From Limnohabitans sp. 2KL-17 (GTDB lineage Bacteria; Pseudomonadota; Gammaproteobacteria; Burkholderiales; Burkholderiaceae_C), in NCBI RefSeq assembly GCF_003063415.1, contig NZ_NESK01000010.1, forward strand, positions 1 through 64,000: 64,000 nucleotides of DNA. The letters are read 5' to 3'. Position 1 is the stretch's first letter. Each line of letters begins with the position of its first letter. Of this stretch, positions 460 through 13,266 are shown piece by piece. The position numbers and the translations under genes are program-made. The notes beneath the pieces were generated by a model. The model did not search any database and was not told the DNA's origin. It saw only the letters and a list, made by a program, of their open reading frames with translations.

Positions 460-825
460 ATGACAAGCCCACAAGCCAAGATCCAAGAAGACACCCATTT
501 TCGGATCATGCGCATCTTGCAAGAAAACCCGGACCTCACCCAACGCGAGTTGGCCGACCAGCTCGGCATGAGCGTGAGTGGGCTGAACTATTGCCTCAAA
601 GCCCTCATCGACAAGGGCTTTGTGAAGATGCAGAACTTTCAAAACAGCAAAAACAAGTTCAAGTACGTGTATCTGCTCACCCCAATGGGCATCGCCGAAA
701 AATTAGCACTGACCAGTCGATTCCTCAGTCGCAAGATGCAAGAGTACGAGGCACTGAAGTTGGAAATCCAGGCGCTCCAGTCTGAAGTTGACACCCCAGG
801 TCAAGATAAAACACAAAAAGCATGA
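460..825 (+). CDS. MarR-family EPS-associated transcriptional regulator
   Basis: A 121-residue winged helix-turn-helix protein. The N-terminal half (about residues 8-75) has the form FRIMRILQENPDLTQRELAD, then a recognition-helix segment (MSVSGLNYCLKALIDKG) and a wing. The C-terminus is a charged helix. This matches the small MarR-like regulators that open exopolysaccharide clusters in proteobacteria. The start at 460 gives the usual family length; upstream in-frame codons code for unconvincing sequence. The stop overlaps the manC start (ATGA), so it is co-transcribed with the sugar genes and probably controls them. The regulatory direction and ligand are unknown. Confidence 0.85.
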   Translation: MTSPQAKIQEDTHFRIMRILQENPDLTQRELADQLGMSVSGLNYCLKALIDKGFVKMQNFQNSKNKFKYVYLLTPMGIAEKLALTSRFLSRKMQEYEALKLEIQALQSEVDTPGQDKTQKA

Positions 826-2279
826 TCAACGTCACCCCCGTTATCCTCTGTGGCGGCTCTGGCACCCGCTTGTGGCCGTTATCGCGTACCGGCTTCCCCA
901 AGCAATTCCTCTGCTTAACAGGCAATGAAAGCCTGTTTCAACAAGCCGCTCAGCGTTTGGCTGGCTTGGCCCAAGACGGCATTCAAGTCGCTGCCCCACT
1001 GATCGTCAGTGGCGAAGACCATCGGTTTTTGGCGTCTGAGCAGCTGCGCGAAGTCGGCATCACGTTGGGCGCCGCATTGCTGGAGCCAATTGGCCGCAAC
1101 ACAGCGCCCGCCTTGACACTGGCTGCCCTGGCCGCCACAGAAAACGGCCAAGACCCCGTTTTGGTGGTCACACCCGCCGACCAAACCGTGGCCAATGCCG
1201 CCGCCTTCACCGCGGCCGTGCAACAAGCCATTGCCCAAGCGGCTGATGGCAACATCGTCATACTGGGCGTCACCCCCGACAAACCCGAAACAGGCTACGG
1301 CTACATCCGCACCGCGCAAAGCCAGGATGCATCCTCGTGCGCGATTGCCTTGCAAGTCACGGCCTTCGTAGAAAAACCCAACCAAGCCACCGCTGAAGCC
1401 TACTTAAAAGAAGGCGGCTACTTTTGGAACGCCGGCATGTTTGTGCTGCGTGCTTCGGTCTGGCTCAAAGCCCTTGAAACCTTTCGCCCCGACATCGCCC
1501 AAGCCTGCCAAGCCGCATGGGTCAACAAAAAGCAAGACGCCCAGTTCATTCGCCCCGGCAAAGATGAATTCGCCGCCATCCCTTCAGATTCGGTGGACTA
1601 CGCCGTCATGGAGCACTGCCCCGGCAGCGCATTCCCTATCCAGATGGTCCCGCTCGATGCCGGATGGTCAGACCTTGGTGCATGGGACGCGGTGTGGAAC
1701 GTGTTGCCCAAAGATACACATGGCAACGCCCATGTGGGCGACGTGCTGACCACCGACAGCCGCAACACCTTGGTGCACGCCAGCAGCCGCTTGGTCACAC
1801 TGGTGGGCGTGAGCGACTTGGTCGTCATTGAAACAGCAGACGCCGTGCTGGTGGCCGACAAAACCCGCAGCCAAGACGTCAAGCACATCGTGGCCCAACT
1901 GCAAAACACAAAGCGCGAAGAACAAACCTTGCACCGCAAAGTGCACCGCCCCTGGGGTTGGTACGACAGCATCGACGAAGGAGGGCGTTTCAAGGTCAAG
2001 CGCATCCAGGTCAAGCCAAAGGCCAGCCTGAGCTTGCAAAAACACCACCACCGCGCTGAGCATTGGATTGTGGTGACCGGCACGGCCGAAATCACCAATG
2101 GCGACCAAGTGATCACCCTGACCGAAAACCAGTCCACCTACATTCCATTGGGGGCTGTGCACCGATTGGTCAACCCCGGCACGATTCCTTTAGAAATCAT
2201 CGAAGTGCAGTCGGGTAGTTATTTGGGTGAAGACGACATCGTGCGGTTTGAAGATACCTACGGGCGTACCAACTCATGA
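822..2279 (+). CDS. manC: Mannose-1-phosphate guanylyltransferase / mannose-6-phosphate isomerase
   Basis: A bifunctional type II enzyme of 485 residues. It makes GDP-mannose from mannose-1-phosphate and GTP, and its cupin half interconverts fructose-6-P and mannose-6-P. The N-terminal nucleotidyltransferase has the signature [13 protein letters not shown] (residues 10-22) and FVEKPN near 178. The C-terminal cupin starts around residue 370 (RPWGWYD) and has the metal-binding KHHHRAEHW. It is full length. It supplies substrate to gmd two genes downstream. It overlaps the regulator before it and fcl after it by 4 bp each, indicating translational coupling. Confidence 0.95.
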
Positions 2280-3241
2280 GCGAACAGCCCAAAATTTATG
2301 TAGCCGGTCACCGAGGCATGGTGGGCAGCGCCATTTGCCGCACACTGCAGGCGCAGGGCCAGACCCACTTGGTCACTCGCACCCATGCCGAGCTGGACTT
2401 GACCAATCAAGCGGCAGTCCAAGCCTTCTTCGCGCAAGAAAAGCCCGACCAGGTCTATCTGGCCGCCGCCAAAGTCGGCGGCATCCATGCCAACAACACC
2501 TACCCGGCAGACTTCATCTATCAAAACCTGATGGTGCAGGCCAACGTGATTGATGCAGCTTTTCAGAGCGGTGTGAAGAAACTGCTCTTTTTGGGCTCCA
2601 GCTGCATCTATCCCCGCATGGCGCCGCAACCTATGCGCGAAGACGCGTTGCTTACTGGCACCTTGGAGCCCACCAACGAGCCTTATGCCATCGCCAAAAT
2701 CGCCGGTATCAAACTCTGCGAAAGCTACAACCGCCAGTATGGTGCGAGCCACGGGGTGGACTACCGCAGTGTCATGCCGACCAACTTGTATGGCCCGGGT
2801 GACAACTACCATCCTGAAAACTCCCACGTTATTCCGGCACTCATTCGCCGCTTCCACGAAGCCAAATTGGCCAATGCCCCCAGCGTCGCCATTTGGGGCA
2901 CAGGCACACCGCGCCGAGAGTTTTTGTACGTAGACGACATGGCCGCAGCCAGCGTGTACGTCATGAAGCTTGGTAAGGCCCTTTACGACCGGCACACCAG
3001 CCCCATGCAAAGCCACATCAATGTGGGCAGTGGGTCTGACGTGACCATCGCAGAAGTGGCCCAAGCCATAGCCCAAACTGTGGGTTATCTAGGCCAAATT
3101 GAGTTCGATGCCACTAAACCTGATGGCGCTCCGCGTAAGTGGATGGACAGTTCGCGCCTCAATGCCTTAGGCTGGCAAGCCAAGATCGATTTACAACATG
3201 GCCTCTCTTCGGCCTATCAAGATTTCGTGAGCAAACTATGA
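2276..3241 (+). CDS. fcl: GDP-L-fucose synthase
   Basis: A 321-residue extended SDR that epimerises and reduces GDP-4-keto-6-deoxy-mannose to GDP-L-fucose with NADPH. It has the nucleotide-binding [10 protein letters not shown] near residue 12, the family motif SSCIYP, and the catalytic YAIAK (YxxxK). The length is typical. It sits between manC and gmd, overlapping both by 4 bp, so the three genes together cover fructose-6-P to GDP-fucose, given a phosphomannomutase encoded elsewhere. Confidence 0.94.
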
Positions 3242-4335
3242 CAAAAAGTACCCAACCCAAAGTCGCCCTCATTACCGGCATCACAGGCCAAGACGGCTCT
3301 TACCTCGCTGAATTCCTTCTGGAAAAGGGCTATATCGTCCACGGCATCAAGCGCCGTGCCAGTAGCTTCAACACCCAGCGTGTGGACCACATCTACCAAG
3401 ACCCGCATATAGACAACGCAAACTTCAAGTTGCATTACGGTGACCTGAGCGACACCAGTAACTTGGTGCGCATCGTGCAAGAAACCCAGCCCGACGAAAT
3501 CTACAATCTGGGCGCACAAAGCCATGTGGCCGTGTCATTCGAGTCCCCCGAATACACCGCCGATGTAGACGGTATGGGTACGCTTCGCCTGCTGGAAGCT
3601 ATCCGCATCCTTGGGCTAGAAAAGAAAACACGCTTTTACCAAGCCAGTACCTCTGAACTGTATGGCCAGGTGCAAGAAACCCCCCAAAAGGAAACCACAC
3701 CCTTCTACCCCCGCAGCCCCTACGCCGTGGCTAAGATGTACGCCTACTGGATCACGGTCAATTACCGCGAAGCCTACGGCATGTATGCCTGTAACGGCAT
3801 CTTGTTTAACCACGAAAGCCCTCGCCGCGGCGAAACCTTTGTCACCCGCAAAATCACCCGCGGCATGGCCAACATCAGCCAAGGCCTGGAAGACTGCCTT
3901 TACATGGGCAACATCGATGCCCTGCGCGACTGGGGCCACGCCAAAGACTATGTGCGCATGCAATGGATGATGCTGCAACAAGACCAGCCAGAAGACTTTG
4001 TGATTGCCACTGGCAAGCAATTCAGCGTCCGCCAGTTTATTGAGTGGACGGCTATAGAGCTTGGCATGCAAATACGCTGGGAAGGCGAAGGCGTCAACGA
4101 AGTCGGGTACGCAGACGGCAAGGCCGTCATCCGCATCGACCCCCGCTACTTCCGCCCCACCGAAGTCGAAACCCTGCTTGGCGACCCGACTAAGGCCAAA
4201 CAAAAGCTAGGCTGGGTGCCCGAAATCACCGCGCAAGAAATGTGTGCCGAAATGGTGGCGTACGACCTAGCCAAAGCCAAGCAACACGCGCTGCTAAAAG
4301 CCAACGGCTACACCGTCAACGTGAGCGTGGAGTAA
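3238..4335 (+). CDS. gmd: GDP-mannose 4,6-dehydratase
   Basis: A 365-residue SDR that makes GDP-4-keto-6-deoxy-D-mannose. [12 protein letters not shown] lies at about residues 12-23, YAVAK is the active-site YxxxK, and [15 protein letters not shown] and [10 protein letters not shown] are characteristic of Gmd. The ATG at 3238 overlaps the fcl stop (ATGA) and gives the normal N-terminus. A second, diverged Gmd-like gene lies at 22614. This copy has the GC-rich composition of the first part of the cluster. Confidence 0.95.
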
Positions 4336-4337
4336 AA

Positions 4338-5111
4338 ATGAAAGCAGTCATCCTCGCCGGGGGCCTAGGCACCCGCATTTCCGAAGAAACCTCGACCCGG
4401 CCTAAGCCGATGATCGAGATCGGCGGCAAGCCCATCCTTTGGCACATCCTCAAGACCTATTCCCACCACGGTATCAATGACTTTGTCATCTGCTGCGGCT
4501 ACAAGGGCTACGTCATCAAAGAGTACTTCGCCAACTACTTCTTGCACATGTCCGACGTCACCTTTGATATGAGCAAAAACAGCATGGAAGTACACCAGCG
4601 CAACGCCGAGCCTTGGCGTGTCACCTTGGTGGACACGGGCGAAGACACGATGACAGGCGGCCGCTTAAAACGCGTGGCCGATTACGTCAAAGACGACGAG
4701 GCTTTTTGCTTCACCTATGGCGACGGAGTAGGGGACGTCAACATCACCGAACTTGTCACGTTCCACAAAGTACAAAACGTCAAAGCCACCCTCACAGGCA
4801 CCATTCCCCCAGGTCGCTTTGGTGCGCTGGACTTGAAGGAAAGCAAGGTCAACAGCTTTATGGAAAAGCCCAAGGGCGACGGCGCCATGATCAACGGCGG
4901 CTTTTTTGTGCTCTCGCCTGATGTGCTTGATTACATCAAAGACGACACAACCACCTGGGAGCGCGAACCGCTGGAGCGCCTTGCGCAAGAGGGCAACTTG
5001 GCCGCCTACCAGCACCACGGCTTTTGGCAACCTATGGACACGCTACGCGACAAGGTTCACCTAGAAGAACTGTGGCAGTCTGGCAAAGCGCCCTGGAAGG
5101 TCTGGCCGTGA
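4338..5111 (+). CDS. rfbF: Glucose-1-phosphate cytidylyltransferase
   Basis: A 257-residue nucleotidyltransferase that makes CDP-glucose, the entry to CDP-3,6-dideoxyhexoses. It has [18 protein letters not shown] at the N-terminus and [10 protein letters not shown] next to it, both typical of RfbF/DdhA. The ATG at 4338 follows the gmd stop by 2 bp. Its end overlaps the GTG start of rfbG. It forms one pathway with rfbG and rfbH. Confidence 0.94.
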
Positions 5112-6181
5112 ACCCTTCTTTTTGGCACGGCAAGCGCGTCTTGCTAACAGGGCACACTGGCTTCAAGGGCAGTTGGCTTAGCCTATGGCTGCAATCCATG
5201 GGCGCACAGGTAACCGGATATGCCCTGGCGCCGCCCACCAACCCCAGCCTTTTTGAGATAGCCGAAGTTGGCCAAGGCATGACCAGCGTTATCGGCGACA
5301 TTCGTGACCTGGCCAACTTGCAAGTCGTGTTTACACAGCACCGCCCAGAGATCGTTATCCACATGGCGGCGCAGCCTTTGGTGCGCTATTCCTACCAAAA
5401 ACCAGTAGAAAACTACGCCACCAACGTGATGGGTACCGTGCATTTGCTAGAGGCCGTGCGCAACACCCCAGGCGTCAAAGCCGTGGTCAACATCACCACA
5501 GACAAATGCTATGAAAACCGCGAGTGGGTTTGGGGTTACCGTGAAAACGAACCGATGGGCGGTTTTGACCCTTACAGCAACAGCAAAGGTTGCGCAGAAC
5601 TGGTCAACGCGGCCTACCGCTCCTCTTTTTTCAATGTAGATAACTACGCCCAACATGGCGTTGCTACCGCCACAGTGCGCGCCGGCAACGTCATTGGCGG
5701 CGGCGACTGGGCGCAAGACCGGTTGATTCCTGACATCCTCGCCGCTTTTGAGCAAGGCCGTCAAGTCAACATCCGCAACCCACACGCCATCCGCCCTTGG
5801 CAACACGTCATGGAGCCTTTGCGTGGCTACCTCACGTTGGCTGAGCAGTTGTTTGAGCACGGCCCAAGCTTTGGCGAAGGCTGGAACTTTGGTCCTAACG
5901 ACGAAGACGCCAAGTCGGTAGGCTGGATCGTTGAGCAAATGGCTGCGCTGTGGGGCGCTGACGCGCAATGGCAGGTAGATACCGGCGTGCATCCTCATGA
6001 AGCTCATTATCTTAAATTGGATATTTCCAAAGCCCGCAGTCGCCTGGACTGGCATCCAGCCTTGCGCCTGCAAGACGCTCTGGCACTCATCATCGACTGG
6101 TCTAAGCAGCAAACGGCGGGCGCCAATATGCAACAGCTCACCCTCGCTCAGATTCACGCCTACCAAGCTCTCACCAGTTAA
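5108..6181 (+). CDS. rfbG: CDP-glucose 4,6-dehydratase
   Basis: A 357-residue extended SDR that converts CDP-glucose to CDP-4-keto-6-deoxy-glucose. [14 protein letters not shown] is the NAD-binding motif near residue 10. [16 protein letters not shown] and YSNSKG (YxxxK) form the active site. I chose the GTG at 5108, overlapping the rfbF stop (GTGA), because the usual family start ([10 protein letters not shown]) begins exactly there. Confidence 0.93.
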
Positions 6182-6206: not shown

Positions 6207-7529
6207 ATGGAAAACGCAAAAACCCAAGCTCTGCGCGAGCAAATTGCCAAACTCGTTGACGAGTACGCTGCTATCGCCCTAGCCCCCCAGCCCTTCTTGC
6301 CCGGGCTTACCGTGGTGCCCCCATCGGGCAAGGTGGTGGGCGCTGAAGAACTCAAAAACATGGTTGAGGCGTCTTTGGACGGCTGGCTCACAACTGGCCG
6401 TTTCAATGCGGAGTTTGAGAAAAAGCTAGCCGCCTTCATCGGCATCAAACACCTTATCACCGTCAATTCAGGGTCGTCTGCCAACCTGGTGGCCTTCAGC
6501 ACACTCACATCACCCAAGTTGGGTGAGCGTGCTATTCAAAAGGGTGATGAAGTCATTGGCGTGGCGGCAGGTTTCCCCACCACGGTCAACCCGATCTTGC
6601 AGTTTGGTGCCGTGCCCGTTTTTGTAGATGTGGATGCACTTACCCACAACATTGATGCGACAAAAATAGAAGCCGCCATTGGCCCTAAAACCAAGGCCAT
6701 CATGCTGGCGCACAGCTTGGGCAACCCGTTCAATTTAGACGTGGTGACTGCCCTGTGCAAAAAGTACAACTTGTGGCTGGTTGAGGACTGCTGCGATGCC
6801 CTGGGCACCACCTACCGTGATCAGATGGTAGGCACTTTTGGCGACATTGGAACGCTCAGTTTTTACCCCGCGCACCACATCACCATGGGCGAAGGCGGTG
6901 CCGTGTTCACCAACAACGACGAACTCAAAACCATTGCCGAGAGCTATCGCGACTGGGGCCGTGACTGCTACTGTGCGCCTGGCAAAGACAACACCTGCGG
7001 CAAGCGCTTTTGCCAAAAACTGGGCAAGCTGCCCGAAGGCTACGACCACAAATACACCTACAGCCACCTGGGCTACAACCTCAAAATTACCGACATGCAA
7101 GCCGCTTGCGGCCTGGCTCAGTTGGACAAAGCCCCGGCCTTCATCCAGGCCCGCAAAGACAACTTTGCCTTTTTGAAAGCACGCCTGAAAGACTGTGAAG
7201 AATTTGTAAACCTGCCCGAAGCCACCGAGCACTCAGACCCTTCATGGTTTGGCTTCCCCATCACGCTCAAAGACAACTGCCCCGTCACCCGGTTAGACCT
7301 GCTGACCTACCTTGACCAAAATAAAGTGGGCACCAGACTTCTGTTTGCCGGCAACCTGACCGCTCAGCCTTACATGCAAGGGGCCAACTACCGCGTGAGT
7401 GGTGATTTGACCAATACCGACAACGTCATGAACAACACCTTTTGGATCGGCGTGCAACCTGCGCTGACGCGTGAGATGTTGGAGTTTGCAGCAGCCAAGA
7501 TTGAAAGCTATTTGGGTGTTAATTTCTAA
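6207..7529 (+). CDS. rfbH: CDP-4-keto-6-deoxy-glucose 3-dehydrase (E1)
   Basis: A 440-residue pyridoxamine-phosphate, iron-sulfur enzyme of the aspartate-aminotransferase fold that removes the C3 hydroxyl. Two diagnostic features are visible. The usual PLP lysine is replaced by histidine ([14 protein letters not shown], His223/224). The [2Fe-2S] ligands follow the E1 pattern C-x57-C-x1-C-x7-C, ending in [11 protein letters not shown]. The enzyme needs a reductase (E3, RfbI/DdhD), which is not present in this window. The start at 6207 gives the normal length. It is 25 bp after rfbG; the DNA becomes clearly AT-richer right after its stop. Confidence 0.93.
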
Positions 7530-7579: not shown

Positions 7580-8668
7580 ATGAAAAATGAAATATTTGAA
7601 GACCTCTTTGTACTAGAAATGGCCAGCAATCACCAAGGTAGTGTGGAGCGTGGTTTAAGAATTATTGAGCAATTTGCAAAAATTGCAAGATTTAATAATG
7701 TAAGAACTGCTATAAAACTTCAATTTCGCGATCTGGAAAACTTTGTCCACAAAGATTTTATTGGCCGAGATGACATTCGCTACATTAAGCGAGTAGCTGA
7801 TACCAAGTTAAGTAAAGAAGATTTTGCAACGTTAGTTGAGGCCATTCGAGGAAGTGGTTGCATACCCATGTCCACACCTTTCGATGAGAAATCTGTTGAT
7901 CTCTGTGTCGAATTCGATCTACCAATTATTAAAGTTGCAAGTGCCGATAACAATGATTGGACGTTGCTTGAAAAAATTGCGAAGACCCGCAGGCCGGTAA
8001 TTGTCTCCACAGGTGGCATGTCAAAAAAAGACCTTGATGATCTAGTTACATTTTTTGAACATCGTAACGTATTACTGGCACTCAATCATTGTGTTGCCGC
8101 TTATCCGCATGAAGACAATGAGGCAGAACTAGGGCAAATTGATTACTTGAAGAATCGATATCCAAACTTGACCATTGGCTATTCTTGTCATGAATATCAT
8201 GATTGGACCTCGTCAGTTCAAATTGCTTTGGCTAAAGGTGCAAAGACATTTGAGCGCCATATCGACATTGATGATGACGGCTTTAAAGTAGCAACTTATT
8301 CGTCATTGCCACACCAAATTGATACTTGGTTCAAAGCCTGGAAGAAAGCCAAGGAAATGATAGGTAATTCTGGCACGGAACGTCGCATACCGATTGATCG
8401 TGAAGTTGCTTATTTAGATTCCTACGTGCGCGGTGTCTATGCCAAGCGTGATTTGGAGAAAAATCATTTATTAACTGAGGATGATGTATATCTTGCGATT
8501 CCTCTGCAGAAAAAACAAATTTCAAGTCGCGAACTGATGTTGGGAAAATTTGGCCATCGCATGATTATGGATTGCAAGAAAGATATGCCAATAACGATTG
8601 ATCAGTTAAATACGCCATACTCTGACAATCCTGATCTGTTAAAAAGTATTCATGCCAGAGGTTTGTAA
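7580..8668 (+). CDS. NeuB-family PEP-condensing synthase (ulosonic acid synthase-like)
   Basis: 362 residues. The N-terminal TIM barrel keeps NeuB-type positions: LEMASNHQG (residues 12-20), AIKLQF (44-49), IIKVAS (116-121), the metal-ligand His in GYSCHEY (His204) and FERHID (224-229). A C-terminal antifreeze/SAF-like domain starts near residue 283 (RGVYAKRDLEK). The family joins phosphoenolpyruvate to an aldehyde sugar to give a 3-deoxy-ulosonic acid. The substrate cannot be read from sequence. No CMP-ulosonate synthetase is visible nearby, whereas a dehydroquinate-synthase-like gene follows, so the product may be cyclised rather than CMP-activated. A good ribosome site (aaaggaag) precedes the ATG. 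It is the first gene of the AT-rich segment. Confidence 0.82.
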   Translation: MKNEIFEDLFVLEMASNHQGSVERGLRIIEQFAKIARFNNVRTAIKLQFRDLENFVHKDFIGRDDIRYIKRVADTKLSKEDFATLVEAIRGSGCIPMSTPFDEKSVDLCVEFDLPIIKVASADNNDWTLLEKIAKTRRPVIVSTGGMSKKDLDDLVTFFEHRNVLLALNHCVAAYPHEDNEAELGQIDYLKNRYPNLTIGYSCHEYHDWTSSVQIALAKGAKTFERHIDIDDDGFKVATYSSLPHQIDTWFKAWKKAKEMIGNSGTERRIPIDREVAYLDSYVRGVYAKRDLEKNHLLTEDDVYLAIPLQKKQISSRELMLGKFGHRMIMDCKKDMPITIDQLNTPYSDNPDLLKSIHARGL

Positions 8669-8698
8669 GGCATAAGATAATTATATATATTAATTTTC

Positions 8699-9409
8699 AT
8701 GAGCAACAAGCCTAGAATACTTATTTTTGGTGCAAATGGAGCAATTGGATCAACAATGGTCAGTCATTTTTGTAAAAATGACTGGCAAGTTGTATCCGTT
8801 TTCCGTACATCAACAACTAAGGATGAATTAAAATCCATAGTGCACGATTTTTCTTCACTGCCACCTGCACCTGACGACATATTTGACTCCAACGCACCCT
8901 ACGATGCGGTTTGTTGGGCGCAAGGTCGCAATGCCAGTGACGATGTCAACACTGTGGATATGGAGGAGCACTTGGCCGTCTATCATGCCAATTGCCTTTA
9001 TATTCTTGCCACTTTAAAGATGCTGCTTAACCGCAAATTGCTTGCGCCTCAGGCAAAGCTTTGCATCATCAGCTCTATTTGGCAAAACCTGGCGCGCCAA
9101 GACAAGCTGTCATATTGCATGAGTAAAGCTGCTTTGCAGGGCTTGGTGCTGTCGGCCAGTGCTGACTTGGCCAAAGACGGCATATTAATCAACGCGATTT
9201 TGCCGGGTGCCTTGGATACCCCAATGACACGTCAAAACGTGGCGCAAGATCAACTGGACAAATTGACTGGCGCAACCTATTTCAACCGCCTGCCAGCACT
9301 GCAAGACGTTGCCAATTTAGCCTATTTTTTATGCTCCCCGCAAAACACGGGTATCACAGGTCAGTTTATTGCGGCAGATCTTGGGTTTAGTCATGTCAGA
9401 TTACTTTAA
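8699..9409 (+). CDS. Short-chain dehydrogenase/reductase
   Basis: A 236-residue classical SDR. The cofactor motif is a variant, FGANGAIG (residues 10-17). Catalytic Ser125/126 (IISS) and YCMSK (Tyr139, Lys143) are present, and the C-terminus contains ILPGALDTPM. Its last 17 bases overlap the start of the cyclase-like gene, so the two are translationally coupled. From context it probably reduces the product of the neighbouring synthase or cyclase, or prepares their substrate. The substrate is unknown. No clear ribosome site is visible. Confidence 0.8.
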   Translation: MSNKPRILIFGANGAIGSTMVSHFCKNDWQVVSVFRTSTTKDELKSIVHDFSSLPPAPDDIFDSNAPYDAVCWAQGRNASDDVNTVDMEEHLAVYHANCLYILATLKMLLNRKLLAPQAKLCIISSIWQNLARQDKLSYCMSKAALQGLVLSASADLAKDGILINAILPGALDTPMTRQNVAQDQLDKLTGATYFNRLPALQDVANLAYFLCSPQNTGITGQFIAADLGFSHVRLL

Positions 9410-10472
9410 AGTAGCCGCCAGCACTGGTGAATACGCTGTGCATATCGGCAGCAACTTACTTAAGTCCCAGCTTGCTCAGTCAGACCAACAGATTGTGCTG
9501 TGTGATGATTTTTTTGCTTCTGCACTGCAGGCGCAAGGTTCAAACCTAATCTGTATACATGCCACTGAATCAGCCAAAAGCCTTGATCAGATGGAGCCCA
9601 TAATTGTTGCGCTACGTCAACTGGGTGCAACCCGCAAGACGCACATCCTAGCCCTGGGCGGTGGGGTGGTGCAGGACATTGCCACGTTTGTAGCCTCTGT
9701 CTACATGCGCGGGCTAAAGTGGCATTACCTGCCCACCACGCTGCTGGGTATGGTGGACTCTTGCATTGGGGGCAAGTCGTCCATTAACGTGGGACCGTAT
9801 AAGAACCTGATTGGTAACTTTTACCCACCTGACAAAATTTATATTGACTTGCAATTTATCAACACGCTCAGTGCCGACCAGCGTGCCGCAGGTTTACTAG
9901 AGGCCGTCAAAATTTGCTTTGCACACACCGGTGAAGCTTTTGACAATTACATAACCCTGCAACCACTGACTGACAGCAGCCCAGATGTGTTTCACCAAGT
10001 CATTCGGCTCGCCTTGGCAACCAAGCGCTGGTTCATCGAGATTGACGAACACGACCACAAAGAGCGGCTCTTGCTGAACTATGGGCACACGTTTGGTCAT
10101 GCGATCGAAGGAGCCTGCGATTTTTTAATACCCCACGGTATTGCCGTCGGCATGGGTATGTTGGCAGCCATAGAGTTTGCACGGTTGAACCATCACTTTG
10201 AAGAAAGTCCCACGCGCGTCGCAGCGCTTTCGACCTATGTGCGTGCGTTGCTTTCAACCGTTACCGACCTACCCACTTGGACCCGGCAAATTGCCTGTGA
10301 TGAATTGATGGACCGCTTTGGCTCTGACAAAAAACACAGCAGCACACACTACTGTGTCATCGTGCCAGATACTGCGGGTTATTTGACCCGTTTGATGGTC
10401 GAAAAAAACGCGGGTAATCGCGCGCTGATTGATTTGGCGTTTCGCAAAGTTTGTTTGGGCAATGCCGCCTGA
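9393..10472 (+). CDS. 3-dehydroquinate synthase-like sugar-phosphate cyclase
   Basis: 359 residues from ATG 9393, which lies 17 bp inside the SDR. By eye every active-site residue I recall for dehydroquinate synthase is kept with the right spacing: GGG 89-91, R106, D122, K128, K137/N138, E170, K173, K211, R225, N229, H232, H236 and H248. One difference from E. coli AroB is HGI (248-250) where AroB has HGE. The family binds NAD and metal and turns a 7-phospho-ulosonate (DAHP) into a carbocycle. Its place in a polysaccharide operon behind a NeuB-like enzyme suggests a specialised paralogue, not the housekeeping aroB. It could still make dehydroquinate itself. Confidence 0.83.
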   Translation: MSDYFKVAASTGEYAVHIGSNLLKSQLAQSDQQIVLCDDFFASALQAQGSNLICIHATESAKSLDQMEPIIVALRQLGATRKTHILALGGGVVQDIATFVASVYMRGLKWHYLPTTLLGMVDSCIGGKSSINVGPYKNLIGNFYPPDKIYIDLQFINTLSADQRAAGLLEAVKICFAHTGEAFDNYITLQPLTDSSPDVFHQVIRLALATKRWFIEIDEHDHKERLLLNYGHTFGHAIEGACDFLIPHGIAVGMGMLAAIEFARLNHHFEESPTRVAALSTYVRALLSTVTDLPTWTRQIACDELMDRFGSDKKHSSTHYCVIVPDTAGYLTRLMVEKNAGNRALIDLAFRKVCLGNAA

Positions 10473-10475
10473 TCA

Positions 10476-11432
10476 ATGGTCATGTGCTCTTTTTTAAGCT
10501 TCAGCCCCAACTTGGCTGTGCGCTTGCGTGCAGCGCAGTGCAACTATGTAGTCACTGGCGCTAATGGATGGCTGGGCAGCGCCACATTAGCAATGCTGCG
10601 CCAGGCGCTGGGCGATGCGTTTGACGCACGGGTGACGGCACTTGGCTCCCGCCACGTGCATCCCGTTCAAGCACTGCTGCAGTGGCAGCCACCCCAGGGT
10701 CAGGCCTTGATCGTTTTCCACTATGCTTTTTTAACCAAGGACAAGGTCAACGGGATTAGCACCAGTGAATACATTGAGCGCAATGCGGCCATCAGCAGCA
10801 AAGTCAGAGGCTGGATTGATGCCGGGCAGGTTCGTGGTGTGGTGCTCCCTTCGTCTGGGGCCGTGTATGACCATCTGCTTCACAAAAACCGCGACCCAGC
10901 AGCGGTTTTGTATGGCAGGCTCAAGTATCAGGATGAGCTTGACTTTACAAACACCTGTGCGGCGTATGACACCAGTGTGGTCATCCCCCGCGTTTTTAAC
11001 CTGTCTGGCCCCTACATCAACAAGTTTGACAGCTACGCGCTGGCCTCCTTTATTCAGCAAGTTTTGCTTGGTAAGCCCATTGCCATTCAGGCTCAAAAAC
11101 CAGTTATACGCTCGTATTACTTTATTGGAGATTTGATTGAGCTATGTGTGCAATTGCTGCTAAATAAAGTTACGCCGGGTACAGTTTGTTTTGACACGGC
11201 GGGCGGTGAAATAGTTGAGCTGGGTGAATTGGCTCAGCGCGTTTCGTCCGTTTTGGTTGAATACAAACCCCAAGCAGTGGTACGGTTGCCCATACAAGAT
11301 GACGCCGTCGCAGACCGCTATGTTGGCAACCGTGAGCAAATCAGTGCGTTGGAAAAAAGCTTGTGTATGCAGCTCAGATCACTTGACCAGCAAATCACTT
11401 TGACTGCGCGGTATATGCAAAGCTTGTTGTAG
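10476..11432 (+). CDS. NAD-dependent epimerase/dehydratase family protein
   Basis: 318 residues; extended SDR with VVTGANGWLGSA (about residues 24-35), SSGAVYD and YGRLK (YxxxK). The C-terminal half is typical substrate-binding sequence (FNLSGPYINKFDSYA). It starts 4 bp after the cyclase gene; a second ATG 6 bp downstream is equally possible and neither has a strong ribosome site. It may be the ketone reductase that follows the thiamine-diphosphate enzyme next door, as YerK does in yersiniose synthesis, or act on the carbocycle. The function is not decided. Confidence 0.75.
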   Translation: MVMCSFLSFSPNLAVRLRAAQCNYVVTGANGWLGSATLAMLRQALGDAFDARVTALGSRHVHPVQALLQWQPPQGQALIVFHYAFLTKDKVNGISTSEYIERNAAISSKVRGWIDAGQVRGVVLPSSGAVYDHLLHKNRDPAAVLYGRLKYQDELDFTNTCAAYDTSVVIPRVFNLSGPYINKFDSYALASFIQQVLLGKPIAIQAQKPVIRSYYFIGDLIELCVQLLLNKVTPGTVCFDTAGGEIVELGELAQRVSSVLVEYKPQAVVRLPIQDDAVADRYVGNREQISALEKSLCMQLRSLDQQITLTARYMQSLL

Positions 11433-11493: not shown

Positions 11494-13266
11494 ATGAAAT
11501 ACAGCGACCTTTTGGCACAGTGGCTCAAAGACATGGGCTATACCCACTGCTTTTATGTGGCCGGTGGCAACATCATGCACATGCTGGCCAGCAGCAACAA
11601 CCACTTTCACATGGTAAGTGTGATACATGAAGTGGCCGCAGGCATTGCTGTTGAGTATTTCAATGAAACCAACGCCGAGGCAAAAGCCTTTGCGTTGGTG
11701 ACTGCTGGACCAGGTTTAACCAATATCGTGACAGCACTGGCGGGTGCCTATCTGGAAAGCCGCGAATTACTGGTTATTGGTGGTCAAGTCAAAACGGCTG
11801 ACCTGAGCCATGGAACGCTGCGCCAGCGTGGTATTCAAGAAATTGACGGCATCAGCATTGCCAAACCGGTGTGTTGCGTAGCAGAGTTGCTTGAGGAACC
11901 CGTTAATTTGGCACGCTTTCGCCAACTCATTCAAGCGGATGCCAGTGGCCGAAAGGGCCCTGTCTTTTTGGAGATGCCGCTTGACGTGCAAGGGCGCACG
12001 GTTGAACGTTCAGTCATGGAGCAGGCATCACCCGAGCCACTGACCGTGCTGACCATGCCGGCTGCCGGTGCAGAAGTAATAGAGCAACTGTCACAAAAAA
12101 TTCGCATGGCTAAGCGACCTGTGCTGCTGCTGGGTGGCGGTGTATCCCGTGAAACCAGCGATTTTCTGCATGATCAATTTGCTGCAATGGGCTTAGCCGT
12201 CATGACCACTTGGAACGGCGCTGACCGCATCGAAGCAGATCATCCCAATTACTTTGGCCGCCCCAACACCTGGGGCCAGCGATATGCCAATATATTGATG
12301 CAACAAAGCGATTTGTTGATTGCGGTTGGCACCCGGCTGGGCATGCAGCAGACCGGCTTTAACTGGCAGCAATTTATTCCAATGGGCGAGGTGGTACAGG
12401 TGGATTGCGATCAGGCCGAACTGTCCAAAGGGCACCCTAATGTGGCTTTGCCAATTTTGGCGGATGCCAACCAGTTTTTGCTAGATCTATCTGCTCAACA
12501 ATTGGGCAAACATGATGCGTGGCTTGGTTATTGCCACCAAGTCAAAGCAGCCGTGCCGCTAATTGAAGCCAACACAACGGGGGACAGCTACTTGTCGCCG
12601 TACCGCTTTGTGGAGGAATTGTCACGGCAATGCGGAGCGGGCGATGTCGTCATCCCTTGCAGCAGTGGCGGTGCATTCACGGTGATGATGCAAGTATTTG
12701 CGCAAAAACGCGGTCAAAAAATAGTAACAAACAAGGGCTTGGCCGCTATGGGTTATGGGCTATCCGGGGCCATTGGTGCTGCCATGGGCAATCCCAATGG
12801 CCGCACCATTTTGGTTGAAGGCGATGGTGGCTTTGCGCAGAACTTGCAGGAGATTGGCACGGTTGCTGTCAACAAACTTAATCTGAAGATTTTTATCTTT
12901 GATGACAATGGTTACGCGTCCATCCGCATGACCCAAAAGAACTACTTTCCAGGCGCGTATATTGGCTGTGATATCAATTCTGGCTTGGGTTTACCCGACT
13001 GGGAGCAACTGTTTAAGGCATACAGGGTGCCTGCTTTGCGCATTAATAAAGGCTTTGAAGCACAAGCTGAGTTCACAGAACTTTTTAACGCTGATGGGCC
13101 GGCAGCCTTCTTCGTCACTATTGATCCTGAGCAAAGCTATTTCCCAAAAATCATGAGCCGGGTAACCGACAGCGGCACTATGGAATCGAATCCACTCCAC
13201 AAAATGTCACCGGATTTACCGGTGGAGATCCAACAACTTTTGTCAATGCCTGCTGTCTTAATGTAA
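11494..13266 (+). CDS. Thiamine-diphosphate enzyme, acetolactate synthase-like (YerE-like candidate)
   Basis: 590 residues. The N-terminal ThDP domain has the activating Glu46 in HEVAAGIAVEYF. The C-terminal domain has the ThDP motif EGDGG (Asp444) with Asn472 in DDNGY, 28 residues later. The size and order match acetohydroxyacid-synthase-type enzymes. Because rfbF, rfbG and rfbH lie upstream, the best analogy is YerE, which adds a two-carbon unit from pyruvate to CDP-4-keto-3,6-dideoxyglucose. A role in housekeeping branched-chain amino-acid synthesis is unlikely here, as no small subunit is present. I chose ATG 11494 because a ribosome site (aagga) sits 5 bp upstream. It is followed by a 168-bp AT-rich gap. 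Confidence 0.8.
   Translation: MKYSDLLAQWLKDMGYTHCFYVAGGNIMHMLASSNNHFHMVSVIHEVAAGIAVEYFNETNAEAKAFALVTAGPGLTNIVTALAGAYLESRELLVIGGQVKTADLSHGTLRQRGIQEIDGISIAKPVCCVAELLEEPVNLARFRQLIQADASGRKGPVFLEMPLDVQGRTVERSVMEQASPEPLTVLTMPAAGAEVIEQLSQKIRMAKRPVLLLGGGVSRETSDFLHDQFAAMGLAVMTTWNGADRIEADHPNYFGRPNTWGQRYANILMQQSDLLIAVGTRLGMQQTGFNWQQFIPMGEVVQVDCDQAELSKGHPNVALPILADANQFLLDLSAQQLGKHDAWLGYCHQVKAAVPLIEANTTGDSYLSPYRFVEELSRQCGAGDVVIPCSSGGAFTVMMQVFAQKRGQKIVTNKGLAAMGYGLSGAIGAAMGNPNGRTILVEGDGGFAQNLQEIGTVAVNKLNLKIFIFDDNGYASIRMTQKNYFPGAYIGCDINSGLGLPDWEQLFKAYRVPALRINKGFEAQAEFTELFNADGPAAFFVTIDPEQSYFPKIMSRVTDSGTMESNPLHKMSPDLPVEIQQLLSMPAVLM

Follow-up and report, generated by a model that had tools for sequence, protein, structure and literature searches.

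Among the closest described relatives of the locus considered here are the pathways for yersiniose and erwiniose, with which it has in common a CDP-3,6-dideoxy-4-ketohexose acceptor and a ThDP-dependent ligase (PMC12247030). The acceptor of YerE is CDP-3,6-dideoxy-4-keto-glucose. YpYerE prefers pyruvate as its donor, and ErwE leaves pyruvate unused and prefers 4-hydroxy-2-oxo acids (PMC12247030). JanthE, a YerE-like enzyme with a solved structure (8rph), can use pyruvate, which may or may not be its substrate in nature (PMC12188165).

Caryophyllose, from the LOS of Mycobacterium marinum, is 3,6-dideoxy-4-C-[D-altro-1,3,4,5-tetrahydroxyhexyl]-D-xylo-hexopyranose (PMC5706390). Its branch is an acyclic chain of six carbons with a CH3 terminus. 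Mutants in MMAR_2331, MMAR_2332 and MMAR_2333 accumulate LOS-II*, a precursor without caryophyllose, and for MMAR_2331 the choice between a role in synthesis and one in transfer was left open (PMC5706390). MMAR_2332 is similar to the YerE/ErwE-type enzymes (PMC12247030). In the accessible literature, published mutants of this M. marinum region were found for these three genes, and none for the AroB-like or SDR gene. Another terminally deoxygenated C7 sugar, 7-deoxysedoheptulose, arises by transketolase action on 5-deoxyribose (PMC6358636).

The Limnohabitans Locus

The window, i.e., the whole stretch of 64,000 nucleotides analyzed (Limnohabitans sp. 2KL-17, contig NZ_NESK01000010.1, positions 1 to 64,000), contains a surface-polysaccharide cluster in which a NeuB-family gene, an SDR gene and a gene for a dehydroquinate synthase (DHQS)-like protein are consecutive on the plus strand (Table 1). 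The first-pass annotation had described this trio, with the last two genes overlapping, and Pfam matches and a 17-nt overlap between the SDR stop and the ATG of the DHQS-like gene bear it out. The mechanical start of the DHQS-like ORF, at 9369, is a TTG upstream of the ATG at 9393.

Table 1. Genes of the cassette and their supporting matches.
Product	Position	Strand	Best match	Remark
RfbF-like glucose-1-phosphate cytidylyltransferase (CDP-glucose)	4338..5111	+	Pfam NTP_transferase 75.2 bits	named by eye and by position preceding RfbG
RfbG, CDP-glucose 4,6-dehydratase	5111..6181	+	TIGR02622 510.7 bits (cut-off 278)	start codon uncertain
RfbH, CDP-4-keto-6-deoxyglucose 3-dehydrase	6207..7529	+	NF011936 743.9 bits (cut-off 423)	
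NeuB-family putative PEP-dependent 3-deoxy-ulosonate synthase	7580..8668	+	Pfam NeuB 134.7 bits	predicted activity
SDR, proposed heptulosonate 6-keto reductase	8699..9409	+	Pfam adh_short_C2 89.7 bits	
AroB-like (DHQS-fold) protein, proposed non-cyclising phospholyase	9393..10472	+	PF01761 126.8 + PF24621 85.7 bits	
Extended SDR/epimerase, proposed branch C1' ketone reductase	10476..11432	+	Pfam Epimerase 66.3 bits	putatively YerF-like
YerE-like ThDP-dependent ligase (predicted)	11494..13266	+	solved chain 8rph 291 bits	

We define a caryophyllose-type cassette as RfbF, RfbG and RfbH together with a C3-extender enzyme, an SDR, an AroB-like protein and a ThDP enzyme. The window contains all of these genes, and its assignment to this type is strong. 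The next solved chain after the YerE-like 8rph scores 192 bits against the ThDP protein, and RfbG and RfbH, both over their cut-offs, are encoded adjacently. Relative to the YerE and ErwE pathways, the window adds the NeuB, SDR and AroB-like steps, and the donor that these provide would be longer and deoxygenated at its terminus.

The NeuB-family protein belongs to the same PEP-condensing family as the NeuB and PseI sialic acid-type synthases but falls far under their equivalog cut-offs (123.8 of 340 bits for PseI and 119.3 of 400 bits for NeuB), and its partner is a ThDP enzyme instead of a CMP-transferase. Its nearest solved chain is 3g8r, at 238 bits versus 86 for a PseI chain.

Distribution of the Cassette

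An F04-type aldolase or a NeuB is carried by 40 of 53 distinct loci (G1552, identical to L011 in its cassette scores and in the length of its contig, was left out of the counts). A YerE-like ThDP gene accompanies 37 of these 40, versus 2 of the 13 others, and loci with both mostly encode RfbF, RfbG and RfbH as well; BLAST screens found RfbF relatives in 35 of the 40. The extended SDR/epimerase family is present in 18 loci. Among the 13 loci lacking both extenders are G855, which has a HpaI-type aldolase instead, and L043, where the cyclase gene is cut by a contig end. L034 and L036 have the ThDP gene, with neither aldolase nor NeuB found by the screen used, and in L015, L026 and G856 the SDR–cyclase pair occurs without aldolase, NeuB or ThDP gene in the stretch read.

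Relatives of the SDR are 37–72% identical, and the SDR gene lies immediately 5' of the cyclase gene in 46 of 51 loci, so this order is not due to chance. The earlier proposal that the three genes serve one pathway is supported. Their expected co-occurrence held for the SDR–cyclase pair; the third slot is mostly occupied by an HpcH/HpaI-type pyruvate aldolase (35 loci), with NeuB in 5 and both in none. Methylomonas sp. LW13 (L021) is one of the organisms with the cassette, in its aldolase form. The NeuB label requires three changes on the cyclase tree, or about two without the long-branched G1199, and more than one exchange therefore seems to have taken place in this slot. A PDB search with the aldolase gave no match at E ≤ 0.1.

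CMP-transferases are found in none of the 40 aldolase or NeuB loci versus 3 of the 13 others, all three being PF02348. This agrees with the window, where BLAST screens (E ≤ 0.01) of the first 25 kb found no CMP-ulosonate synthetase, as had been noted before. PF02348 matches occur at three places in the genome: a 180-bit match on contig C16, probably kdsB; a weak one of 25.9 bits on C79; and a neuA-like gene at C38:35493. The last directly adjoins a second NeuB (NeuB_NnaB 341 bits, cut-off 400), so the linkage of a neuA-like gene is to a NeuB other than that of the cassette.

G961, which entered the set through its NeuB, has NeuB, the ThDP gene and RfbFGH, and neither cyclase nor SDR was seen within the 16 kb read; this gene content is the expected outcome if NeuB supplies the ThDP enzyme. 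G855 has the order SDR, cyclase, HpaI-type aldolase and CMP-transferase, an arrangement that suggests that the C2 ketone may survive.

Comparison with Mycobacterium marinum

In the mycobacterial genus, seven genomes have a homologue, and the gene orders cyclase-SDR-aldolase-ThDP-GT-RfbF and RfbH-RfbG are found in five of them. The five cyclases are only 38–40% identical and lie on a long branch. One of the genomes, G882, matches M. marinum, as judged from several sequence features. With suitable start codons, two of its ORFs have the lengths published for mmar_2318 (909 bp) and mmar_2319 (1638 bp), a DegT (wecE-like) gene adjoins these ORFs, and a PKS lies past the cassette. At a distance of about 26 kb, 20 of the 21 bases of a published mmpL12-flank primer are matched, in this genome alone among the seven searched.

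In G882, the cyclase, SDR, aldolase, ThDP, RfbF, RfbG and RfbH genes form one block, which would correspond to the MMAR_2331–2333 region, and the aldolase, ThDP and GT assignments are confirmed by Pfam. By gene order, MMAR_2331 would be the aldolase. The window differs in that a NeuB-family protein replaces the aldolase and an extended SDR is encoded next to the cassette genes; screening of its first 25 kb found no MMAR_2333-like GT (family F08).

The AroB-Like Protein

The best NCBIfam match of the AroB-like protein is TIGR04425 (AroB-related putative sugar phosphate phospholyase, cyclizing), at 281.8 bits and below the cut-off of 400; the aroB profile TIGR01357 gives 244.8 bits, below its cut-off of 305. 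The best TIGR04425 E-value in a set of 36 is 8.8e-92, and the G855 relative passes the cut-off with 435.9 bits. Loci over the TIGR04425 cut-off also have an SDR neighbor, but the four differ from the window in their partners, with a SIS protein in 3 of 4 and a 2-hydroxyacid dehydrogenase and CMP-transferase in 2 of 4. A plasmid search with the cyclase returned 22 records, every one below 37% identity.

The protein has the fold of AroB and, as the first-pass annotation had stated, keeps the DHQS active-site residues. All 14 positions checked are retained (D95, R106, D122, K128, K137, N138, E170, K173, K211, R225, N229, H232, H236 and H248, in window numbering), which we take to be the functional sites of A. 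nidulans DHQS. They are invariant in 38/38 main-clade cassette proteins and in the 9/9 AroB proteins compared. In a tree, however, the 9 AroB proteins are separated from 50 cassette-type proteins with 100/100 support, and the signature Q94, W110, C124 and L208 is present in all 50 of the latter and in none of the AroB proteins. Ring closure is the step that we propose this separate clade to skip.

The structure model (pLDDT 93) resembles both DHQS (3qbe, TM 0.80) and DOI synthase (2gru, TM 0.83) in Foldseek, which does not set the model apart from ring-closing enzymes. A sequence-profile comparison places 13 DHQS/AROM chains ahead of 2d2x (DOIS) and 4p53 (EEVS-like cyclase).

A Proposed Pathway

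The cassette in the window probably makes a CDP-activated caryophyllose-type branched sugar through a non-cyclising AroB-like step. On the computational side this reading draws on gene families, cassette conservation, aldolase/NeuB exchange and the match to the M. marinum-like LOS locus, and from the accessible literature it draws on YerE-like chemistry and the three neighboring M. marinum mutants without caryophyllose. The first-pass annotation had expected a carbocyclic product from an ulosonate phosphate. The substrate, PEP- or pyruvate-derived, probably stands; the carbocycle is not supported. The conserved CDP-hexose and YerE-like ThDP partners, and the occurrence of the cassette in an LOS locus like that of M. 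marinum, with the acyclic branch of caryophyllose, suggest instead that a 7-deoxy keto acid without a ring would serve as the ThDP donor.

In the first step, NeuB, or elsewhere the HpcH-type aldolase, would extend an aldose phosphate, for which D-erythrose 4-phosphate is the likeliest candidate, with PEP (or pyruvate) to form a 3-deoxyheptulosonate 7-phosphate. The AroB-like enzyme would then carry out the DHQS half-reactions, in which C5 is oxidized, the C7 phosphate is eliminated and C5 is reduced. Here, the enol would be protonated without ring closure to leave a C6 ketone and a C7 methyl group, and the SDR would reduce C6; this order of the first three steps is the one that we favor. The ThDP enzyme would decarboxylate the resulting C7 alpha-keto acid and transfer the acyl group to C4 of the CDP-3,6-dideoxy-4-hexulose supplied by RfbF, RfbG and RfbH, and the adjacent extended SDR may reduce the C1' ketone. 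The ulosonate would need no CMP, and no neuA, since the CDP-hexose carries the activation.

Somewhat less firmly, but still as the better bet, we propose that a DHQS-fold enzyme here removes the terminal phosphate of a 3-deoxyheptulosonate 7-phosphate by internal redox without closing a ring and, together with the SDR, provides 3,7-dideoxyheptulosonate as the ThDP acyl donor. A PEP-dependent NeuB and a pyruvate aldolase would be interchangeable sources of the C3 unit of this donor. By its published name, the caryophyllose branch presumably corresponds to 3,7-dideoxy-D-ribo-heptulosonate. We assume that D-erythrose 4-phosphate and a NeuB-type si-face attack yield this configuration and that the re-face attack of DAHP synthase would not.

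If correct, the pathway would supply missing steps of the caryophyllose branch, add a new reaction outcome to the DHQS fold, known as a ring-closing enzyme family, and explain NeuB without a CMP-transferase. C4-branched sugars would become predictable from gene content: RfbH present or absent would mean 3-deoxy or 3-hydroxy, and the SDR and AroB-like pair would mark the presence or absence of a terminal CH3. No paper combining caryophyllose and dehydroquinate was found in literature outside subscription, the one paper found on dehydroquinate synthase with O-antigen and NeuB has, judging by its title and the opening of its abstract, a different subject, and no paper on an "AroB-related" phospholyase was among the matches listed.

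Alternative Readings

The best placed of the alternatives, although unlikely, has the phospholyase and SDR act first to make a 4-deoxytetrose that NeuB or the aldolase then extends. The same keto acid and the same final sugar would result, and the aldolase and NeuB families both accept aldehydes. However, the conserved DHQS substrate-binding set suggests an ulosonate 7-phosphate substrate, and a tetrose phosphate would be unable to form the pyranose that DHQS binds.

Next, and also unlikely, is a true cyclase, which would convert the ulosonate phosphate to a carbocyclic acid. The SDR would reduce this acid, and the carbocycle would end up either as a residue of the glycan or attached to the branched sugar. 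The 14 retained positions fit ring closure equally well, and the final DHQS steps are chemically easy. Also in favor are the resemblance of the model to DHQS and DOI synthase and a sequence profile that is nearer to DHQS, with DOI synthase and the EEVS-like 4p53 more distant. The cassette also occurs in two Bradyrhizobium loci (L028 and L029), and bradyrhizose is a carbocycle-containing O-antigen sugar of other strains of that genus (PMC4743980). Against this, a DHQ-type product no longer has the alpha-keto acid for the ThDP partner, CMP-transferases (the class of nucleotidyltransferase screened for) are missing from all 40 cassette loci, and the same cassette is present in the LOS locus of the M. 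marinum-like genome, the LOS residues of M. marinum being described without a carbocycle in the accessible text (PMC5706390).

Bradyrhizose, a bicyclic C10 sugar, had been our first idea for the product and was set aside, as the loci fit caryophyllose better. The accessible main text on its eleven-gene cluster does not contain the word "dehydroquinate" (PMC4743980). Among the 296 genomes in the family of a Bradyrhizobium genome, the center genome itself was the single match at E ≤ 1e-90, so the R. palustris sugar was not tied to genes.

We consider it rather improbable that two pathways lie side by side, with RfbFGH, the ThDP enzyme and pyruvate making a yersiniose-like sugar and the NeuB/aldolase, SDR and AroB-like proteins an unrelated residue. 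The use of pyruvate by YpYerE (PMC12247030) and JanthE (PMC12188165) would suit such a division, as would the SDR–cyclase pair without a ThDP gene in L015, L026 and the TIGR04425 loci. It fits poorly with the ThDP gene in 37 of 40 aldolase or NeuB loci, with the lack in those 40 of a CMP-transferase for a second ulosonate residue, and with G961, which retains NeuB and the ThDP gene without a cyclase.

Under redundant housekeeping, the NeuB-like protein would serve as an additional DAHP synthase, alongside the AroB-like protein as a second dehydroquinate synthase; despite the DHQS-like fold and active-site positions, this is very improbable, given the signature that sets the cassette proteins apart from AroB and a full-scoring aroB elsewhere in the genome (C34; TIGR01357 380.6 bits, cut-off 305). 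The tree and this gene confirm the earlier view that the cyclase is not the housekeeping enzyme. In 8/8 other cassette genomes searched there is likewise a second, lower-scoring gene, which groups with true aroB in the tree.

Gene content of the cassette

Judging from gene content, the window cassette is likely a shikimate-type module that has been repurposed for a branched sugar. The first-pass annotation described its NeuB-like, SDR and DHQS-like genes as consecutive, with the last two overlapping, and the coordinates bear this out. The manC, fcl and gmd-like genes suggest that GDP-fucose or a related sugar enters the same glycan as the cassette sugar.

Window genes of the cassette and its surroundings
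Feature	Position	Strand	Remarks
manC, fcl, gmd-like genes	822-4335		upstream, directly before the cassette; Pfam, exact names by eye
RfbF, RfbG, RfbH			between the gmd-like group and the NeuB-like gene
NeuB-like	7580-8668	+	consecutive with SDR and DHQS-like gene
SDR	8699-9409	+	between NeuB-like and DHQS-like genes
DHQS-like (AroB-like, "cyclase")	9393-10472	+	17-nt overlap with SDR gene
Extended SDR, then ThDP enzyme			downstream of the DHQS-like gene
Family 2 glycosyltransferase			beyond the ThDP enzyme; more genes after, named by eye alone

The genome (3.5 Mb, 111 contigs) carries its true aroB on contig C34 (TIGR01357, 380.6 bits; cut-off 305) and a second NeuB on C38 (NeuB_NnaB, 341.3 bits; cut-off 399.65), immediately preceded by a PseF-like CMP-transferase (80.4 bits; cut-off 205.7). 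As this CMP-transferase adjoins the C38 gene, a neuA linked to the window NeuB was not found, in agreement with the earlier reading. The cassette cyclase was not found in G087, a genome of the same genus, at the thresholds used, which may reflect gain or loss of the cassette during the history of the genus.

Distribution and conservation

A contig scan of the genomes gave 36 loci, and adding loci from further genomes brought the set to 54, or 53 distinct loci once one duplicate was removed. For the pair of SDR and cyclase, the gene co-occurrence proposed as a check was upheld: an SDR gene directly precedes the cyclase in 46 of 51 cyclase-bearing loci, three more miss this arrangement solely through long stop-to-stop frames, and an SDR was not found in the other two (G1199, L042). 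The NeuB slot is usually occupied by a 260-residue HpcH/HpaI-type aldolase (Pfam, 31.0 bits; cut-off 25), present in 35 of the 53 loci; NeuB is found in five (window, G073, L035, G1199 and G961), and none has both. On the cyclase tree, the NeuB label requires three changes, one due to the uncertain G1199, and 39 of 500 label shufflings were as low. Both a PEP synthase and a pyruvate aldolase yield a 3-deoxy-2-ulosonate, and the exchange thereby indicates what the first step does.

Among the 40 loci with aldolase or NeuB, the ThDP gene is present in 37, RfbG in 36, RfbF in 35 and RfbH in 32. The cases missing RfbF or RfbG lie on contigs of 5-9 kb; RfbH was not found in L027-L029 (21 kb read) or G1405 (9.8 kb read). 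A CMP-transferase was found in none of these 40 loci and in three of the remaining 13 (G855, G1287, G1504; PF02348), two of which 13 (L034, L036) have the ThDP gene. The cassette cyclase is uncommon and scattered, occurring in two of 150 genomes of the family, own genome included (E <= 1e-40), one of 296 of the Bradyrhizobium family (E <= 1e-90) and seven of 248 of a mycobacterial genus recognized by its PPE genes (E <= 1e-64).

The AroB-like protein

The best NCBIfam model of the window cyclase is TIGR04425, "AroB-related putative sugar phosphate phospholyase (cyclizing)", which has the status of a hypothetical equivalog and scores 281.8 bits, under the cut-off of 400; the aroB model gives 244.8 bits, under its cut-off of 305. 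Both match all 36 members of a set of cyclase-type proteins, window included. In a tree of 59 proteins, all either AroB or cassette-type, with G1199, G1504, L058 and L038 long-branched and unsurely placed, the 50 cassette-type proteins split from the nine AroB at 100/100, so the cyclase stands apart from housekeeping AroB, as the first reading required. The window protein clusters with aldolase-bearing Gallionella and Oxalobacteraceae. A second, lower-scoring gene in all eight other cassette genomes searched clusters with own aroB in every case.

Q94, W110, C124 and L208 occur in all 50 cassette-type proteins and in none of the nine AroB. The two groups have the checked catalytic positions in common, except for H at K173 in two of five TIGR04425-context proteins. 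With the predicted structure (pLDDT 93), the best Foldseek matches by E-value are DHQS chains (3qbe, TM 0.80), and DOI synthase 2gru reaches TM 0.83; the fold therefore cannot separate ring-closing types.

The ThDP enzyme and caryophyllose

The closest solved relative of the window ThDP enzyme is 8rph, named as JanthE, which takes pyruvate and longer keto acids (PMC12188165). YerE joins pyruvate to CDP-3,6-dideoxy-4-keto-glucose; ErwE prefers 4-hydroxy-2-oxo acids and does not use pyruvate; and MMAR_2332, the M. marinum ThDP gene for caryophyllose, has a preference similar to ErwE (PMC12247030).

Five of the seven mycobacterial genomes with a cyclase homolog (G882, G806, G742, G880, G676) have the order cyclase-SDR-aldolase-ThDP-GT-RfbF plus RfbH-RfbG, with the G882 aldolase scoring 37.3 bits in Pfam. 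G882 is probably M. marinum or a very near relative: two of its ORFs have possible starts that yield 909 and 1638 bp, as published for mmar_2318 and mmar_2319 (PMC4703794), a DegT gene adjoins these ORFs, a PKS lies past the cassette, and a published mmpL12-flank primer matches at 20 of 21 bases, in this one of seven genomes searched. Mutants in MMAR_2331, 2332 and 2333 accumulate a precursor without caryophyllose, and for MMAR_2331 the authors considered either synthesis or transfer possible (PMC5706390). As 2333 is the GT (PMC4403928) and 2332 the ThDP gene, 2331 would by gene order be the aldolase gene.

Caryophyllose is 3,6-dideoxy-4-C-[D-altro-1,3,4,5-tetrahydroxyhexyl]-D-xylo-hexopyranose (PMC5706390). 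By its structure, the branch matches the decarboxylation product of a 3,7-dideoxyhept-2-ulosonate: its C3 unit would come from pyruvate or PEP and the remainder from a four-carbon aldehyde with its last carbon deoxygenated. The AroB-like protein and the SDR, the only conserved cassette genes without a role, would be the natural candidates for this deoxygenation. The carbocyclic product of the first-pass annotation is unlikely, given the nearly constant ThDP partner and the match to this M. marinum-like locus for a sugar with an acyclic branch.

An FGGY-type sugar kinase gene adjoins the mycobacterial AroB-like gene in L077 (13163-14437, 46.5 bits), and a cut fragment at L070 17299-18000, similarly placed, has an FGGY-type match below cut-off; such a kinase may supply a sugar phosphate.

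A proposed step without ring closure

DHQS first oxidizes C5; the phosphate on C7 is then eliminated, C5 is reduced again, and the enol attacks C2. In the AroB-like enzyme, the enol would instead be protonated, giving a 7-deoxy-6-ketone that the SDR would reduce. The shared catalytic residues and constant SDR partner fit this route. G961 has NeuB, ThDP and RfbFGH, and neither cyclase nor SDR was found within the 16 kb read; this is what an optional deoxygenation module made up of cyclase and SDR would lead one to expect, and it also supports the route. In G855 (L074 4977-8323), an SDR, a true TIGR04425 protein (435.9 bits), an HpaI-type aldolase and a CMP-transferase stand in a row. CMP activation requires a C2 ketone, which ring closure would consume, so this neighborhood supports AroB-like action without closure. 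Against it, ring closure may be chemically easy, and ring-closing enzymes have this same fold and the same residues at the checked positions. The model also leaves unexplained the settings of the SDR-cyclase pair in L015, L026, G856, L034, L036 and the over-cut-off TIGR04425 loci.

Variant loci

A CMP-activated deoxy-ulosonate pathway is possible in G855. The four over-cut-off TIGR04425 loci (L099-L102) have SDR and AroB-like genes, with SIS-domain genes in three; two hold a 2-hydroxyacid dehydrogenase gene and a CMP-transferase gene (PF02348). In Sphingomonadaceae, the pair occurs at L015 2874-4719, preceded by a luciferase-like monooxygenase, and L026 9214-11059; no nearby gene was recognized as a polysaccharide gene at either. 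Besides RfbFGH, NeuB and ThDP, the G961 cluster (L089 632-8488) holds a pair of methyltransferase-like genes, one of which matches FkbM in Pfam; the cluster probably makes a branched sugar without deoxygenation of the branch. An RfbH-less cassette occurs in Bradyrhizobium (L028, L029, both also with a methyltransferase gene of family F17) and Rhizobium (L027). This version would fit a 3-hydroxy or 3-O-methyl analog like the one reported for R. palustris (PMC9912281).
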